A stretch of DNA of 64,000 nucleotides from Ruminococcus sp. (lineage in GTDB: Bacteria > Bacillota > Clostridia > Oscillospirales > Ruminococcaceae). Location of the stretch: assembly GCF_017464355.1 (NCBI RefSeq), contig NZ_JAFUAG010000044.1, forward strand, positions 1 through 64,000, in the 5' to 3' direction. Below are positions 9,279 through 12,904 of the stretch, piece after piece; within the stretch, counting starts at the first letter, position 1; every line of letters starts with the position of its first letter. Both the position numbers and the translations under genes were made by a program. The notes under the pieces were generated by a model. That model did no database searches and had not been told where the DNA came from. It was given only the letters and a program-made list of their open reading frames with translations.

Positions 9279-9736
9279 CTACTCCAAATCCCCATTCTTC
9301 TTACGCTTGCGGTCTTGCTGCTGCTCGTTGCGTTCCTGACGGAGAAACTCCTCAATGGTACGCTGTGCATCGGCAAGGTCACGCGCCCGCTTATCCGCTT
9401 CACGAAACTGCTGATCCTTCAATGAACGCTCCCCAATAAGGGCGTTTATTTTTTTGTCCAGGCTCTCCACGGTCGGGATATGTCCTGACGGGTATAGCTC
9501 CAACACTTTAGTGCGAATCTGCCCGTACTCGGTAAGCTCTGCGCTGTGTTCCTTTCGGTACTTCTTCGCAGCACTTCCGCTGAGGGCTTTCAGCTCCTCG
9601 CCGTACACTTTCAGCTTGCGGTATTTCCGCAGGACTGTCAGCTTCACCTGCAAGTCCTCGATCTCCGTTTTCATGTCGTTCAGCTCGGAGAGAAGATAAG
9701 TGACAGCGTTCCCGTCGGCAGCATAGCCACGGTCTT
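9279..9736 (-). pseudogene. Relaxase C-terminal remnant
   Basis: The minus-strand frame opens right after a TAA near 9737 with GYAADGNAVTYLLSELNDMK and continues 131 aa as a basic coiled coil (LRKYRKLKVYGEELKALSGS), ending in KRKKNGDLE. This is the C-terminal tail seen on MobL-type relaxases of clostridial mobilisable elements. The nicking domain is absent. An internal ATG at 9674 could still allow a 131-aa product. Confidence 0.6.
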
Positions 9737-9842
9737 ATACATCGACGATCTCGACAATGTTTTCATAGAATGGGTGAGCAACGGACGGCTGACCTCGTTT
9801 TCCAAAAAGAATTTCAAGAGCTTGTTTGATATGGCAGGATAA
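9708..9842 (+). pseudogene. Fragment of a small SH3-like element protein
   Basis: A plus-strand frame reads VPVGSIATVLYIDDLDNVFI and then EWVSNGRLTSFSKKNF before TAA. The pattern recalls the small barrel-like proteins (DUF4314 kind) that ride on integrative elements. It has no start and overlaps the antisense relaxase remnant by about 30 bp, so the junction is near 9708-9736. Confidence 0.4.
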
Positions 9843-9868
9843 TGATTCATTCAAATCACATAAAAACA

Positions 9869-9906
9869 AACTCCCCGGAACTGCTCATACGAACAGCTCC
9901 GGGGAG
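9869..9906 (-). terminator. Terminator of hsp20
   Basis: A 9-bp CTCCCCGGA/TCCGGGGAG stem extended by CTG/CAG across one mismatch. On the minus strand TTTGTTTTT follows, right after the hsp20 stop. Confidence 0.85.
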
Positions 9907-9937
9907 CATTATTTTGGGATCATAACTTAGCGAGGTA

Positions 9938-10381
9938 TTATCCCTCAATTGCAATATACTTGTGATTCTCCAGCTTCTTAGGCTCTGCCTTCGGAACGCA
10001 GATGTTCAGAACACCGTCCTCAAACTTCGCCTTCACATCGGCTTCTGTAACAGTATCACCGATATAGAAGCTCCTCTGCATTGCGCCTGCGTAACGCTCC
10101 TGACGGATCAGCTTGCCCTTCTCAGTTTTTTCGTCCTTGTCAAGACCCTTTGCGGCACTGACAGTCAGATAACCGTTCTGAAGCTCAAGATTGATCTGAT
10201 CTTTCTTGAAGCCCGGCAGGTCGATCACGATCTCATAGTGATCATCATGCTCATGAACATCAGTCTTCATGACCTGGGCGGCGTGTTTACCGTACAGCTT
10301 CTTCTCCACGTCTCTGCTAAAATCAGGGAATCTGAAGAGATCATCGAATAAGTTTTCACCGAAAATGCTTGGATACAACAT
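9938..10381 (-). CDS. hsp20: Hsp20/alpha-crystallin small heat-shock protein
   Basis: 147 aa. A short N-terminal arm (LFDDLFRFPDF) is followed by the alpha-crystallin domain: YEIVIDLPGFKKDQINLELQ, then GYLTVSA, and an A-x-F-x-DGVLNICVPK close (residues 45-140). ATP-independent holdase that keeps unfolding proteins soluble in the cytosol. AGGAGG is placed before the ATG. It is read from a promoter covered by a CIRCE element, so HrcA repression with heat induction is expected. It sits inside the accessory island, so it may be an imported copy. Confidence 0.95.
   Translation of the reverse strand: MLYPSIFGENLFDDLFRFPDFSRDVEKKLYGKHAAQVMKTDVHEHDDHYEIVIDLPGFKKDQINLELQNGYLTVSAAKGLDKDEKTEKGKLIRQERYAGAMQRSFYIGDTVTEADVKAKFEDGVLNICVPKAEPKKLENHKYIAIEG
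10263..10286. repeat. 24-bp direct repeat, copy 1 (within hsp20)
   Basis: Perfect copy of 10656-10679. Here it encodes the HAAQVMKTD part of Hsp20. Confidence 0.9.
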
Positions 10382-10493
10382 AGGTCAGTCCTCCTTTTTT
10401 ACTCGTAACATTGTTTCCATTGCTTCGAGCAAGGGGACGGAGGGTTCAGCACCCGGATCCTTTGGTGCTTCTCTGTTCCTTTGTTCTGACTAT

Positions 10494-10536
10494 ATTATAG
10501 CACTCTTGATTAGCACTGTCAAGGGGAGAGTGCTAA
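10494..10536 (-). promoter_or_regulatory. hsp20 promoter with CIRCE operator
   Basis: On the minus strand TTGACA (10517-10522), 17 bp, TATAAT (10494-10499). TTAGCACTG-N9-GAGTGCTAA at 10510-10536 is the HrcA-binding CIRCE element with one mismatch, overlapping the -35 box. A further GCACTC sits at 10500-10505. Confidence 0.9.
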
Positions 10537-10605
10537 TTTTCACACAGGTTTCATATTTTTTAACAAGAATGTCACATTGGGTCGTGAGCAATAATGATCT
10601 GCCGA

Positions 10606-10634
10606 TTGACCTTTTGACCGCAGTATGGTACAAT
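10606..10634 (+). promoter_or_regulatory. Promoter-like direct repeat, copy A
   Basis: TTGACC (10606-10611), 17 bp, TACAAT (10629-10634). The 23 bp at 10608-10630 recur exactly at 11660-11682. No gene follows directly; the next 270 bp hold only the 24-bp repeat copy and AT-rich DNA. Confidence 0.7.
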
Positions 10635-10655
10635 TATCTTATACCCTGCTATGCC

Positions 10656-10679
10656 GTCTTCATGACCTGGGCGGCGTGT
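10656..10679. repeat. 24-bp direct repeat, copy 2 (non-coding)
   Basis: Identical to 10263-10286, 393 bp away. The end of this copy also forms a GGCGGCG-TGT-CGCCGCC hairpin with following bases (10670-10686). Confidence 0.9.
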
Positions 10680-10903
10680 CGCCGCCTCCTGTTTCGCGGC
10701 AAAGCATAATGGAACGGAAGATCCTCACCGCGTGACCGAAAGTTTATGTTAATGTATGAAATAAACCGGCCTGAGCTGATAAACTCAACAAAACAATCTT
10801 CATTGATAAACTTAATGAACTGCAATATGCACAAAACTCATATTACTGTTTTATTTCCATCTACAAAAATTATGAATAAACCGTTAATCCTTAATAATGA
10901 TTG

Positions 10904-10932
10904 TTTACTTTTTCCAGGCGAATATGTATAAT
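10904..10932 (+). promoter_or_regulatory. Promoter of the GG-leader peptide genes
   Basis: TTTACT (10904-10909), 17 bp, TATAAT (10927-10932), about 50 nt before the first peptide gene. Confidence 0.8.
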
Positions 10933-10980
10933 AAACACATAGAGTAACACAACTCAACAAACTAAAAGGAGGTCACAAAT

Positions 10981-11271
10981 ATGGCTGATGTAATGGAGAA
11001 TAAAATTGAAAACAAAGAGATCGGCATTAATGATCTTGAAGACGTAAACGGTGGATATGCAATGAATGAAGGTGAGTGGTTCAGGATGTCTCGTTTTATG
11101 TTTACCGAAGAAGAGGTGCAAATAATAAAACAAAAAACGAATATTTCTCTTACGGAGTTTAAAGAATATACCTACAAAGATCTAAATAACATGGGTATCC
11201 CGGGAAATAGCACTAAAAAGGTACAACAATATTTAGAAGGATTAGGTGTTTATATAACAGTACATTATTAA
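10981..11271 (+). CDS. GG-leader peptide precursor 1 (bacteriocin-like)
   Basis: 96 aa with AGGAGG before the ATG. The N-terminus holds a leader ending in INDLEDVNGG, which fits the double-glycine class cut by C39-peptidase ABC exporters. The part after GG (about 70 aa, starting YAMNEGEWF) has no cysteine and is fairly polar, so it is not a typical class II bacteriocin core. It may instead be an exported effector or substrate peptide. No exporter or modifying enzyme lies in the window. Confidence 0.65.
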   Translation: MADVMENKIENKEIGINDLEDVNGGYAMNEGEWFRMSRFMFTEEEVQIIKQKTNISLTEFKEYTYKDLNNMGIPGNSTKKVQQYLEGLGVYITVHY

Positions 11272-11298
11272 ACAAAATAACTAAAGGAGGTCACTATT

Positions 11299-11553
11299 AT
11301 GACTGATGAAATAAACAAAAAACTTGAAAACGAAGAACTCGACCCGGAACAGCTCGAAGGTGTAGGCGGCGGTCTCATAGTTAACGGTGGTTTTTGTCGT
11401 AACGCACGAGTTGTTGATGATAAAACGGGTGAGATATTAAATTCAGACTGTTATTATGCTAAAGATGCCAAAAAAGTTGCCGAGCGTCTTAATGTAAGCA
11501 CAGAGATCATCAGCATGGCTGAGTATAAGGAACGTTTTGGAAAAGACATTTGA
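11299..11553 (+). CDS. GG-leader peptide precursor 2
   Basis: 84 aa, AGGAGG upstream, 28 nt after the first peptide gene. The leader ends LDPEQLEGVGGG. The core of about 58 aa contains two cysteines (GFCRNAR and NSDCYYA), which could form a disulfide, and a helical Lys/Glu-rich end. The shared leader style and spacing suggest the two are made and exported together by a transporter encoded elsewhere. Confidence 0.65.
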   Translation: MTDEINKKLENEELDPEQLEGVGGGLIVNGGFCRNARVVDDKTGEILNSDCYYAKDAKKVAERLNVSTEIISMAEYKERFGKDI

Positions 11554-11610
11554 TCTGTCCATCAGGATCGATTCAAAAACATGAGAAAAGTGGATTAACA
11601 AATAAGCACG

Positions 11611-11650
11611 AAAGGCATTGCAGGTACCAACCTGCAATGCCTTTCTTTTA
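11611..11650 (+). terminator. Strong terminator after the peptide genes
   Basis: AAAGGCATTGCAGGT and its complement form a perfect 15-bp stem around ACCA, followed by CTTTT. Confidence 0.9.
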
Positions 11651-11659
11651 CTTCTGATC

Positions 11660-11686
11660 GACCTTTTGACCGCAGTATGGTATAAT
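11660..11686 (+). promoter_or_regulatory. Promoter-like direct repeat, copy B
   Basis: The 23 bp at 11660-11682 equal those at 10608-10630. TATAAT (11681-11686) is consensus but the -35 has decayed to TCGACC. It reads into a headless integrase fragment. Confidence 0.6.
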
Positions 11687-11693
11687 TATCCTA

Positions 11694-12137
11694 TATAAAA
11701 AGCTCTGCGGCAAAGATTACATTACGGAATTTGAGGGCTTTGTATGCTGTGATCCGTATGGAAAGCTCATCAGTCCGAACACGGTAACGCACGACTTCCA
11801 CGAGGTCATCAAGAAGAACGGTCTGAAAATGCTCCGTTTCCATGATCTCCGTCACAGCTGTGCCAGCCTTTTGCTTGCAAACGATATTCCGATGAAGGCT
11901 ATTCAGGAATGGCTCGGTCATGTGACATTCAATATCACGGCGAACCTTTATAGCCATCTGGACTATCATGCTAAGGTCACTTCGGCTGAGACTATTGCAA
12001 GGGTTCTCAGCGGAAAAAAAGAAGATACTCCCACCGACACAAAAGAGACTGTGTCGGAAGAAGCACCCAAGAAGTCAAACAACAGAAAAAAGAAGAAAGA
12101 CACATCTGCGGACAAGTCACAGCCCGCAGCCGTGTAA
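11694..12137 (+). pseudogene. Tyrosine integrase, C-terminal catalytic fragment
   Basis: From YKKLCGKDYITEF onward the frame matches phage/ICE integrases of the Tn916 type. It shows FHDLRHSCASLLL (His-x-x-Arg box), WLGHVTFN and the nucleophile Tyr in ANLYSHL, then a Lys/Thr/Ser-rich tail to 12137. The arm-binding and core-binding domains and the first catalytic Arg are missing and there is no start. It shows that a tyrosine-recombinase element once sat here besides the serine-recombinase one at the left edge. Confidence 0.8.
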
Positions 12138-12194
12138 TTATATAATATAGTGTGACAAGACAGATGAAGAAATGGAAAATTTCAAAAAAGAGCG

Positions 12195-12232
12195 ATTTTG
12201 GTAGAAAAAACGGTAGAAAATTTTGGTAGAAG
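12195..12232. repeat. Three GGTAGAA repeats downstream of the integrase
   Basis: GGTAGAA at 12200, 12212 and 12225, spaced 12 and 13 bp, each preceded by T/C-rich or A-rich bases. Position just past int suggests integrase arm-type sites or attachment-site DNA. The rest of 12138-12318 shows no gene. Confidence 0.45.
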
Positions 12233-12318
12233 TCAATTATATGATTTCACAGGAGTTTCGCAAAAGCCGTAATACCGAAAGAAAAAGCACATAAAACGAA
12301 AAGGTTCATATAATGCGC

Positions 12319-12347
12319 TGGACATTGCCCCGATTTTATGCTATAAT
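12319..12347 (+). promoter_or_regulatory. Promoter of the small membrane gene pair
   Basis: TGGACA (12319-12324), 17 bp, TATAAT (12342-12347). Confidence 0.7.
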
Positions 12348-12433
12348 ATAGATATTCAGTTTGCTGCCACTAACTCAAATACACACATCGTTGAAGGGCT
12401 GAATGATATGAATATACCTGTGATATTGTTGAA

Positions 12434-12904
12434 ATGCTGATCTTTTCGATCCTGTTTACCGTGATGTGTTTCAAAACATCAGGGAAGAGCACTACTGTAC
12501 AGATCCATAACTATCCGCCCGAAATACAGGAGGAATACTTCAAGACACATGAGCGTGTCCCGACTGGACCGCTTTCTAAAAGAGTGGTTCTTACAAAGGG
12601 GATCACGATACTGATCTTTGCAGCCGTGCTTGTGGTTATGGCGCTTCCGGCAGGTGCCCAGGACTTCCTGCAGGGATCTCTGTTTGCCTTTGGAATGATG
12701 GCGTGGATCGGGGCTTATGATACGTTCTTCATTGATTGGGTGCTGTTCGCCGATCTGAAGCGTTTCCGCCTTGAAGGGACGGAGCATATGGACAACGCCT
12801 ATCATCAGAAGTGGTTTCATCTGAAAGGAATGCTGTTTCCGGGAATTGTATTTGCACTTTTACCCTCGGCACTGGTGGGGGTACTTGTGTCTATCATAAA
12901 GTGA
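12434..12904 (+). CDS. Small membrane protein, unknown (N-terminus uncertain)
   Basis: 156 aa from the first ATG at 12434, which lacks a good ribosome site. An ATG at 12408 with AAGGG upstream begins MNIPVILLKC and then hits TGA, so the true start may have been lost by a small frameshift. Four hydrophobic segments; helix 3 holds DTFFIDWVLF, and the protein ends in ALVGVLVSIIK. It resembles the proteins at 7414 and 12945 in size and plan. Function unknown. Confidence 0.6.
   Translation: MLIFSILFTVMCFKTSGKSTTVQIHNYPPEIQEEYFKTHERVPTGPLSKRVVLTKGITILIFAAVLVVMALPAGAQDFLQGSLFAFGMMAWIGAYDTFFIDWVLFADLKRFRLEGTEHMDNAYHQKWFHLKGMLFPGIVFALLPSALVGVLVSIIK

Follow-up and report, generated by a model that had tools for sequence, protein, structure and literature searches.

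A predicted exported mini-protein pair of Ruminococcus with possibly fast-changing cores and an unlinked NHLM-type C39 exporter

A contig of Ruminococcus sp. (NZ_JAFUAG010000044.1; its first 64,000 nucleotides, the whole stretch of DNA that was analysed, are referred to as the window) carries two adjacent genes for small peptides with GG leaders, located between two copies of a promoter-like repeat. This arrangement raises the question of whether the peptides are exported, by which machinery and to what end, and whether the repeats are the ends of a mobile unit. The original prediction held that this could be an undescribed exported pair carried as a small movable cassette. Here, both genes, designated P1 and P2, and their surroundings were compared with the rest of the genome and with relatives in the genus and family (loci, genomes and contigs are given as L, G and C numbers).

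The gene architecture proposed at the outset was borne out (Table 1): tandem peptides of 96 and 84 residues, leaders ending in NGG and VGGG, a promoter-like site of their own, no cysteine in the first mature core and two in the second. A terminator is present as well, with a stem of 16 bp instead of the 15 bp first given, and similar stems are located 3′ of the relatives in L061, L062, and L063. The sequence AAAGGAGGTCAC stands upstream of both genes, which are 71% identical over a 90-bp stretch comprising the ribosome site and the leader. As a bare count, the promoter-like sites in 10500-11800 are weak evidence (seven, versus 4.2 with an sd of 2.2 in shuffles); they are considered credible because the same sites recur in relatives, not because of the pattern count. 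Neither a modifying enzyme adjoining the pair nor an immunity gene was recognised in the list of open reading frames around it. No curated cut-off in Pfam or NCBIfam was reached by P1 or P2, and no PHROG was matched at E 0.001, so that the description of the pair as undescribed holds within these libraries; the two core families are new to the libraries searched.

Table 1. Coordinates of the P1/P2 cassette and of the features on either side of it (positions in the window)
Feature	Position	Strand	Details
hsp20 gene flanking left repeat	9938..10381	-	PF00011, 75.7 bits
Left repeat copy	10599..10643	+	23-bp exact core 10608-10630; part of hsp20 flank, as in L032, L033, L035, L037
24-bp exact copy of hsp20 piece (10263-10286)	10656..10679	+	Where likeness to sister hsp20 site L032 stops
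Cassette 5′ region	10730..10980	+	Promoter-like TTTACT-17-TATAAT at 10904-10932, ribosome site; 196/224 aligned positions identical to L061
P1 gene	10981..11271	+	96 aa; GG leader residues 1-25, ends VNGG; 71-aa Cys-free core
P2 gene	11299..11553	+	84 aa; GG leader residues 1-25, ends VGGG; 59-aa core, fold predicted
Intrinsic terminator	11610..11645	+	16-bp stem; -28.6 kcal/mol, z -9.6
Right repeat copy	11651..11695	+	23-bp core 11660-11682; in L061 too, directly after same terminator; usual downstream gene missing here
Tyrosine integrase gene, 3′ remnant	11697..12137	+	PF00589, 40.6 bits for 11829-12134; similarity to other loci begins 11697

The remark that no exporter is near the pair is right for this contig, because the only match to the C39 domain in the whole genome is on another contig (C15), the exporter and the cassette thus being unlinked in this genome. 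The C39 exporter that was to be looked for elsewhere in the genome is therefore present; it is of the NHLM type and stands beside a GG peptide. Its gene (L007:11589-13766) scored 925.9 bits with TIGR03796 (cut-off 853.3), and the gene next to it scored 719 bits with TIGR03797, the ABC2 partner (cut-off 709.4). Upstream are a 137-aa protein with a below-cut-off match to the HlyD-like TIGR03794 (29.9 bits) and a STAS protein, and downstream come a protein of 142 aa and a GG peptide of 94 aa whose leader is of the P1/P2 type. In the crystal structure of the Lachnospiraceae C39 protease LahT, as presented in the sections of the source drawn on here, the leader anchors V-4, L-7, and L-12 sit in a hydrophobic groove (PMC6363468). 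At positions -4/-7/-12, P1 has V/L/I and P2 has V/L/L, with GG at -2/-1. This direct anchor reading supports recognition of P1 and P2 by a C39 exporter and, together with the presence of that exporter, upholds the predicted export of the pair as far as sequence can tell.

Leader profiles extended the search to other putative cargo. A profile trained on P1, P2, the C15 peptide, and a relative in G019, run against the genome at E up to 0.1, gave eight hits: P1, P2, and the C15 peptide themselves, a tandem trio on C28, and two more on C11. As the first three had served for training, only the other five are new. The converse profile, built from 15 leaders of the GG-peptide arrays in L064-L066, performed less well: at E up to 10 it missed both P1 and P2 in their own genome, and its hits were the C15 peptide (E 0.036), a single peptide on C11 (0.13), and a site on C14 (0.3). 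The C28 peptides (L051:3174-5566, or C28:39173-41565; 72, 69, and 69 aa) come after a set of genes for a STAS protein, an anti-sigma ATPase, and a SigF-like sigma factor, for which the SigF model was the best match, below its cut-off; this order suggests that peptide export is tied there to a sporulation-type sigma operon. On C11 (L052:2124-5887), a GG peptide with a long leader and CxxC pairs adjoins a radical SAM gene; the same stretch also encodes a GG peptide of 84 aa and a fusion protein of the STAS-phosphotransferase kind.

Relatives of the pair are sparse in the genus, where P2 was found in two of 29 genomes (its own and G019, on contig C134) and P1 in its own alone (1/29). Across 396 genomes of the family, including the window's own, the alignment of P2 with its G019 relative gave at least five matches and P1 gave three, and a scan of contigs brought the P2 loci to at least nine; the P1 relatives are in L059, L060, and L064:1390-1671. 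In L064, L065, and L066 the relatives are located within long runs of GG-leader genes. NHLM ABC genes stand at the head of the run in L065 and L066 and adjoin the relative in L068 (three of nine P2 loci among the matches listed); the ABC1 genes of these three loci exceed the cut-off, with the assignment matched by coordinates. The 8-kb contig L064 has P1 and P2 relatives in one array and no exporter. By eye, many array cores of L064-L066 contain paired Cys and His residues with a zinc-finger- or ribbon-like spacing, so that exported mini-proteins may include zinc-binding folds.

The two core families are not bound to one kind of leader. P1 cores follow short leaders in the window and L064 and long ones in L059 and L060; weak Nif11 matches were obtained for two of the four P1 family members (best E 0.0068), presumably L059 and L060, given their long leaders. 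Likewise, P2 cores are found under short leaders and under one long leader (L068, L069). At the level of sequence, these combinations, along with the slot exchange described below, establish the core as an independent module, occurring under other leader types, and a slot as able to take a different core.

Carriers of these cores also tend to have the exporter. C39 was detected in 80 of the 396 family genomes (E 1e-10), and, among the matches listed, it is present in five of the six genomes other than the index one that match P1 or P2 (hypergeometric p 0.0015). Leaving out G072, a doubtful match, the count is four of five (p 0.006), and if G402, which matches mainly in the leader, is left out as well, it is three of four (p 0.027); three of the genomes in this comparison share one genus and are thus not independent. 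TIGR03796 exceeded its cut-off in eight of 12 distinct carrier genomes (9/13 handles; G362 and G423, being identical in coordinates and scores, were counted once). Among the remaining carriers, G019 has a part of the exporter only (578.6 bits), and no match above 335 bits was obtained in G398, G417, or G418. In the window's genus as a whole, TIGR03796 exceeded the cut-off in eight of 29 genomes.

The chemistry of the cores bears on what kind of product they might be. The predicted structure of P2 has a mean pLDDT of 76.6; confidence is low for the leader and reaches block means of 84-91 from residue 31 onwards. The structure comprises strands at residues 25-29, 36-40, and 46-52, a helix at 54-63, a short strand at 70-72, and a helix at 73-80; comparison with the PDB gave no convincing match. 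For P1, structure prediction was not reliable. Both mature peptides are computed to be soluble (pI 5.8 and 6.4) and to have no membrane-like stretch, a respect in which typical pore-forming class II bacteriocins differ from them. Soluble, mildly acidic cores, the folded state predicted for P2 and the failure of the array-trained leader profile to recover either peptide would also suit small cytosolic proteins in which GG is incidental. This reading is considered most improbable: GG is invariant in all 11 P2 and all four P1 family members aligned, which also have hydrophobic residues at -4 and -7, the cores are present in exporter-linked arrays, and leaders of other types that precede the same core likewise terminate in GG.

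Export of the pair could also concern RiPP precursors whose modifying enzyme acts in trans, for which the radical SAM genes adjoining the long-leader GG peptide on C11 and in the L065 array region could be cited. Such modification is quite unlikely for P1 and P2, in that cysteine is not conserved in P2 (the window copy has two residues, the L061 copies one and three) and is missing from the P1 core, and what is conserved in the P2 core includes a predicted hairpin, VVDDKTGEIL, instead of a stretch rich in Cys, Ser, or Thr. Unmodified exported proteins are the preferred reading.

For P2 pairs among the window, L061a, L061b, L062, and L063, core omega was 1.5-3.3 (seven of 10 possible pairs). 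Three P2 pairs of L064-L066 gave core values of 2.1, 1.75, and undefined (eight nonsynonymous and zero synonymous changes), and for L068/L069 the core value was 1.17 and that of the whole stretch 0.84. The P1 relatives L059 and L060 differ in the core by 28 nonsynonymous and two synonymous changes. Seven control comparisons (ABC2, a sigma factor, three other neighbours, and hsp20 twice) yielded 0.05-0.33; a single one of them, L062/L063, involves two members of the five-copy set. Nine comparisons of other GG cargo yielded 0.07-0.51 in five cases, 1.02 for one pair of the C28 peptides of the window's genome, and undefined values in three (no synonymous changes). Under a one-ratio codon model, omega for the five close P2 cores was ~4.5, rejecting 1 (2dlnL 14.1, p 0.00017), and that for all eight P2 cores was ~1.2, not different from 1 (p 0.37). 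The leaders of the eight copies gave ~0.3, again rejecting 1 (p 0.00003); those of the five copies were not distinguishable from neutral (p 0.62), and the leaders of the window and L061 differ by six nonsynonymous and zero synonymous changes. Since the five-copy leader does not differ from 1, the core/leader contrast rests on eight copies: fast core change is seen for the five P2 copies, and slow leader change for the eight only.

Pooling disjoint P1 and P2 pairs gave a one-sided p of 0.0013 (0.012 for P2 alone), and in Fisher tests the seven single pairs ranged from about 0.03 to 0.26, with none below 0.029. Sites with at least three residues among the five P2 copies (30, 32-34, 50-56, 58-60, 62-63, 68-69, and 78) are clustered (p 0.00025) and correspond mainly to the loop after strand 1 and to the end of strand 3 plus helix 1. 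As the selection tests were chosen post hoc and on few sequences, they constitute a strong lead, not proof, that the exported parts of P1 and P2 could be changing unusually fast, as do molecules of microbial competition.

Rapid change would also be expected of exported pheromones co-evolving with a receptor. Pheromones are usually shorter than cores of 59 and 71 aa, and a fold is predicted for P2; inspection by eye of the surroundings of P1/P2 and of their relatives revealed neither a sensor kinase nor a receptor. This explanation is regarded as unlikely, even with GG peptides of the same genome located near regulators (the STAS gene beside the exporter, and the STAS/anti-sigma/SigF-like set before the C28 trio) and with pheromones being carried by C39 exporters too, as the portions of two papers used here indicate (PMC8836110, PMC7018657). 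A role of the unmodified pair in competition is kept as the preferred reading.

The cassette itself is found outside the genus. Window positions 10730-11693 are homologous to L061:245-1265 in G063, from another genus (g36), with blastn giving 1059 columns at 69.6%. Taken part by part, the sequences upstream to the ribosome site agree as given in Table 1, the slot-1 leaders are identical at 52/75 positions, the slot-2 leaders at 69/75, the slot-2 cores at 143/175, and the 3′ parts with terminator and right repeat at 114/129; shuffle percentages of this part-wise comparison are not comparable, as shuffled pairs align over few columns. The slot-1 cores give no real alignment (30 columns of 216, 21 identical), because slot 1 of L061 has a P2-type core and that of the window has P1. 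These identities indicate a common two-gene frame in which the core of one slot differs. Within the window, the P1 and P2 cores show a marginal likeness (16 of 1000 shuffles scored as high), and P1 scored above all 1000 shuffles against its L064 relative. A further kind of exchange appears in L062 and L063, whose flanks are 96-99% alike and whose P2 genes are far apart (dS 0.05 for a flank gene; dS 0.175 and dN 0.274 for the P2 core), a pattern that fits replacement of the P2 gene by another allele.

Whether the cassette moves as a unit delimited by its flanking repeats depends on what the repeats are. As first described, two identical 23-bp copies each cover a -35 to -10 span: the exact 23-mer, GACCTTTTGACCGCAGTATGGTA, occurs twice in the window, both strands counted, and each copy spans a sigma-70-like promoter (TTGACC-17-TACAAT on the left and TCGACC-17-TATAAT on the right). 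It is the core of a 45-bp repeat whose two copies are 89% identical. With the best candidates per genome scored, at least nine further places were matched, and the repeat is not a chance occurrence; it is a conserved candidate promoter in at least eight of 28 congeneric genomes. At eight of nine relative sites it is followed by barstar/exonuclease genes, whole or damaged (partly by eye): both genes in L031 and L035 (by Pfam matches and by likeness, respectively), an exonuclease gene in L034 and L038, and cut or damaged versions in L032, L033, L036, and L037. In L039 it precedes a different gene, neither barstar nor exonuclease (partly by eye). The arrangements in L031, L034, L035, and L038, with barstar plus exonuclease or exonuclease alone behind one highly conserved 45-bp promoter, apparently represent a decaying unit in several Ruminococcus-type genomes.

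In L032, L033, L035, and L037 (four sites in three genomes; 95-96% identity), the repeat is located at the same hsp20 flank, and the left window copy is for this reason taken to be the hsp20-side promoter. These sister sites supply the comparison with an empty site that had been proposed: each has a single repeat, and a motif scan found no GG peptide near it, the sequence of L033 stopping ~0.8 kb past the repeat. The right copy came with the cassette and stands after the same terminator as in L061, where no left copy was found within 475 bp upstream of the pair. Both window copies are without their usual downstream gene. Beyond the left copy, the window still tracks the hsp20 sites, L032 to 10656 and L035 to 10652, before foreign DNA begins; this continuation of ~10 bp speaks against a simple crossover inside the repeat. 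At the start of the foreign DNA, the perfect 24-bp copy of an internal hsp20 piece (Table 1) looks like a template-switch scar. Upstream of hsp20, at 10500-10540, there is an inverted repeat that resembles a CIRCE (HrcA) operator. The translations of L032:7540-8932 (G004:C20) contain repeated motifs of the kind that CRISPR arrays give.

Taken together, the flanking repeats are best read as conserved promoters joined by rearrangement at a spot damaged in several genomes, and homologous recombination at the repeat may have contributed to the present order. That they are instead the ends of a small mobile cassette, excised and inserted as a unit, is very unlikely: the insert does lie between direct copies, the four sister sites have one copy, and the right copy accompanies the cassette in L061, but the repeat precedes barstar/exonuclease genes elsewhere, the likeness to the sister sites runs on past the left copy, the 475 bp upstream of the L061 pair show no such copy, and the three inverted pairs detected in 9600-12800 in a search for the terminal inverted repeats of an insertion sequence or transposon are not at the repeats. 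Of the proposed small movable cassette, transferability is thus supported in part and the 23-bp repeats as unit ends are not: the pair behaves as a transferable cassette because its homologue is present in another genus and single-repeat hsp20 sites without a GG peptide exist.

Several known systems resemble P1 and P2 in part; the likenesses and differences given here refer to those portions of the cited papers that were drawn on. As in NHLM/NHLP export (TIGR03794, TIGR03796, TIGR03797; BMC Biol 2010, PMC2887384), there is an exporter pair over the cut-off, with GG leaders and variable cores after GG. In contrast to that system, P1 and P2 are away from the exporter with no modifying enzyme recognised beside them, and their cores fall into conserved families that vary in patches and are not wholly unrelated tails (PMC2887384); unlike NHLP/Nif11 precursors (TIGR03793, TIGR03798, PF07862), they have short leaders with no NHase-like or Nif11 match. 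MAM of Faecalibacterium prausnitzii is a GG-leader protein and a non-classic bacteriocin for which a C39 exporter elsewhere in the chromosome was suggested in several strains; it is a different protein, likened to P1/P2 by description (GG leader, distant exporter) (PMC8836110). The Lah system of Lachnospiraceae has many GG precursors per cell and, in LahT, a tolerant C39 protease using V-4, L-7, and L-12, but its precursors are part of a lanthipeptide cluster and carry leaders of the Nif11 type, with two quoted core masses below 3 kDa (PMC6363468). Class IIb two-peptide bacteriocins share the two successive GG-leader genes with apparently one promoter, and are defined by GxxxG, AxxxA, or SxxxS in both peptides, whereas P2 has one AxxxA and P1 none (PMC13289728). 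What sets P1 and P2 apart from known cargo is the exchange of cores between leaders and slots together with a sign of diversifying selection on a folded core. In the mostly open-licence literature searched, none of the titles listed dealt with NHLM export in Ruminococcus or with selection acting on GG-leader cores, and the sole paper containing both 'NHLM' and 'Ruminococcus' concerns Sjogren's syndrome. P1 and P2 may figure in the tables of a gut class II bacteriocin atlas (PMC12648078) or of the Hungate1000 survey (PMC13289728).

The explanation that best accommodates these observations is that P1 and P2 are probably an unmodified exported mini-protein pair, served by an NHLM C39 exporter encoded elsewhere and acting, again probably, in competition. 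The two genes would be co-transcribed from the promoter-like site at 10904-10932, with transcription stopping at 11610-11645. The exporter on the other contig, for which the gene, the partner subunit, and the matching anchor residues were found, would bind the leaders at V-4, L-7, and L/I-12, cut after Gly-25, and send out cores of 71 and 59 aa. In the P2 core, a constant scaffold with two variable patches (30-34 and 50-63) suggests contact with a partner that also changes, which would most likely be met in competition with related rumen bacteria. If positive selection in the core is real, it would indicate that some target in the rumen is under pressure, and the residues to test are named above.

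Genome mining for secreted peptides usually begins at an exporter or an enzyme and then looks beside it. Cargo genes standing alone, at least one of them with a core predicted to be a small folded domain, could be missed by such exporter- or enzyme-centred mining. A broader proposal, tentative and held at well under even likelihood, is that rumen Ruminococcus and their relatives maintain a repertoire of folded, unmodified mini-protein binders with fixed scaffolds and fast-changing patches, in which cores would be swapped between leaders and slots, the cassette would cross genera, and any resident NHLM exporter would serve. If this is true, these bacteria would possess an arms-race secretion system whose cargo need not adjoin its exporter.
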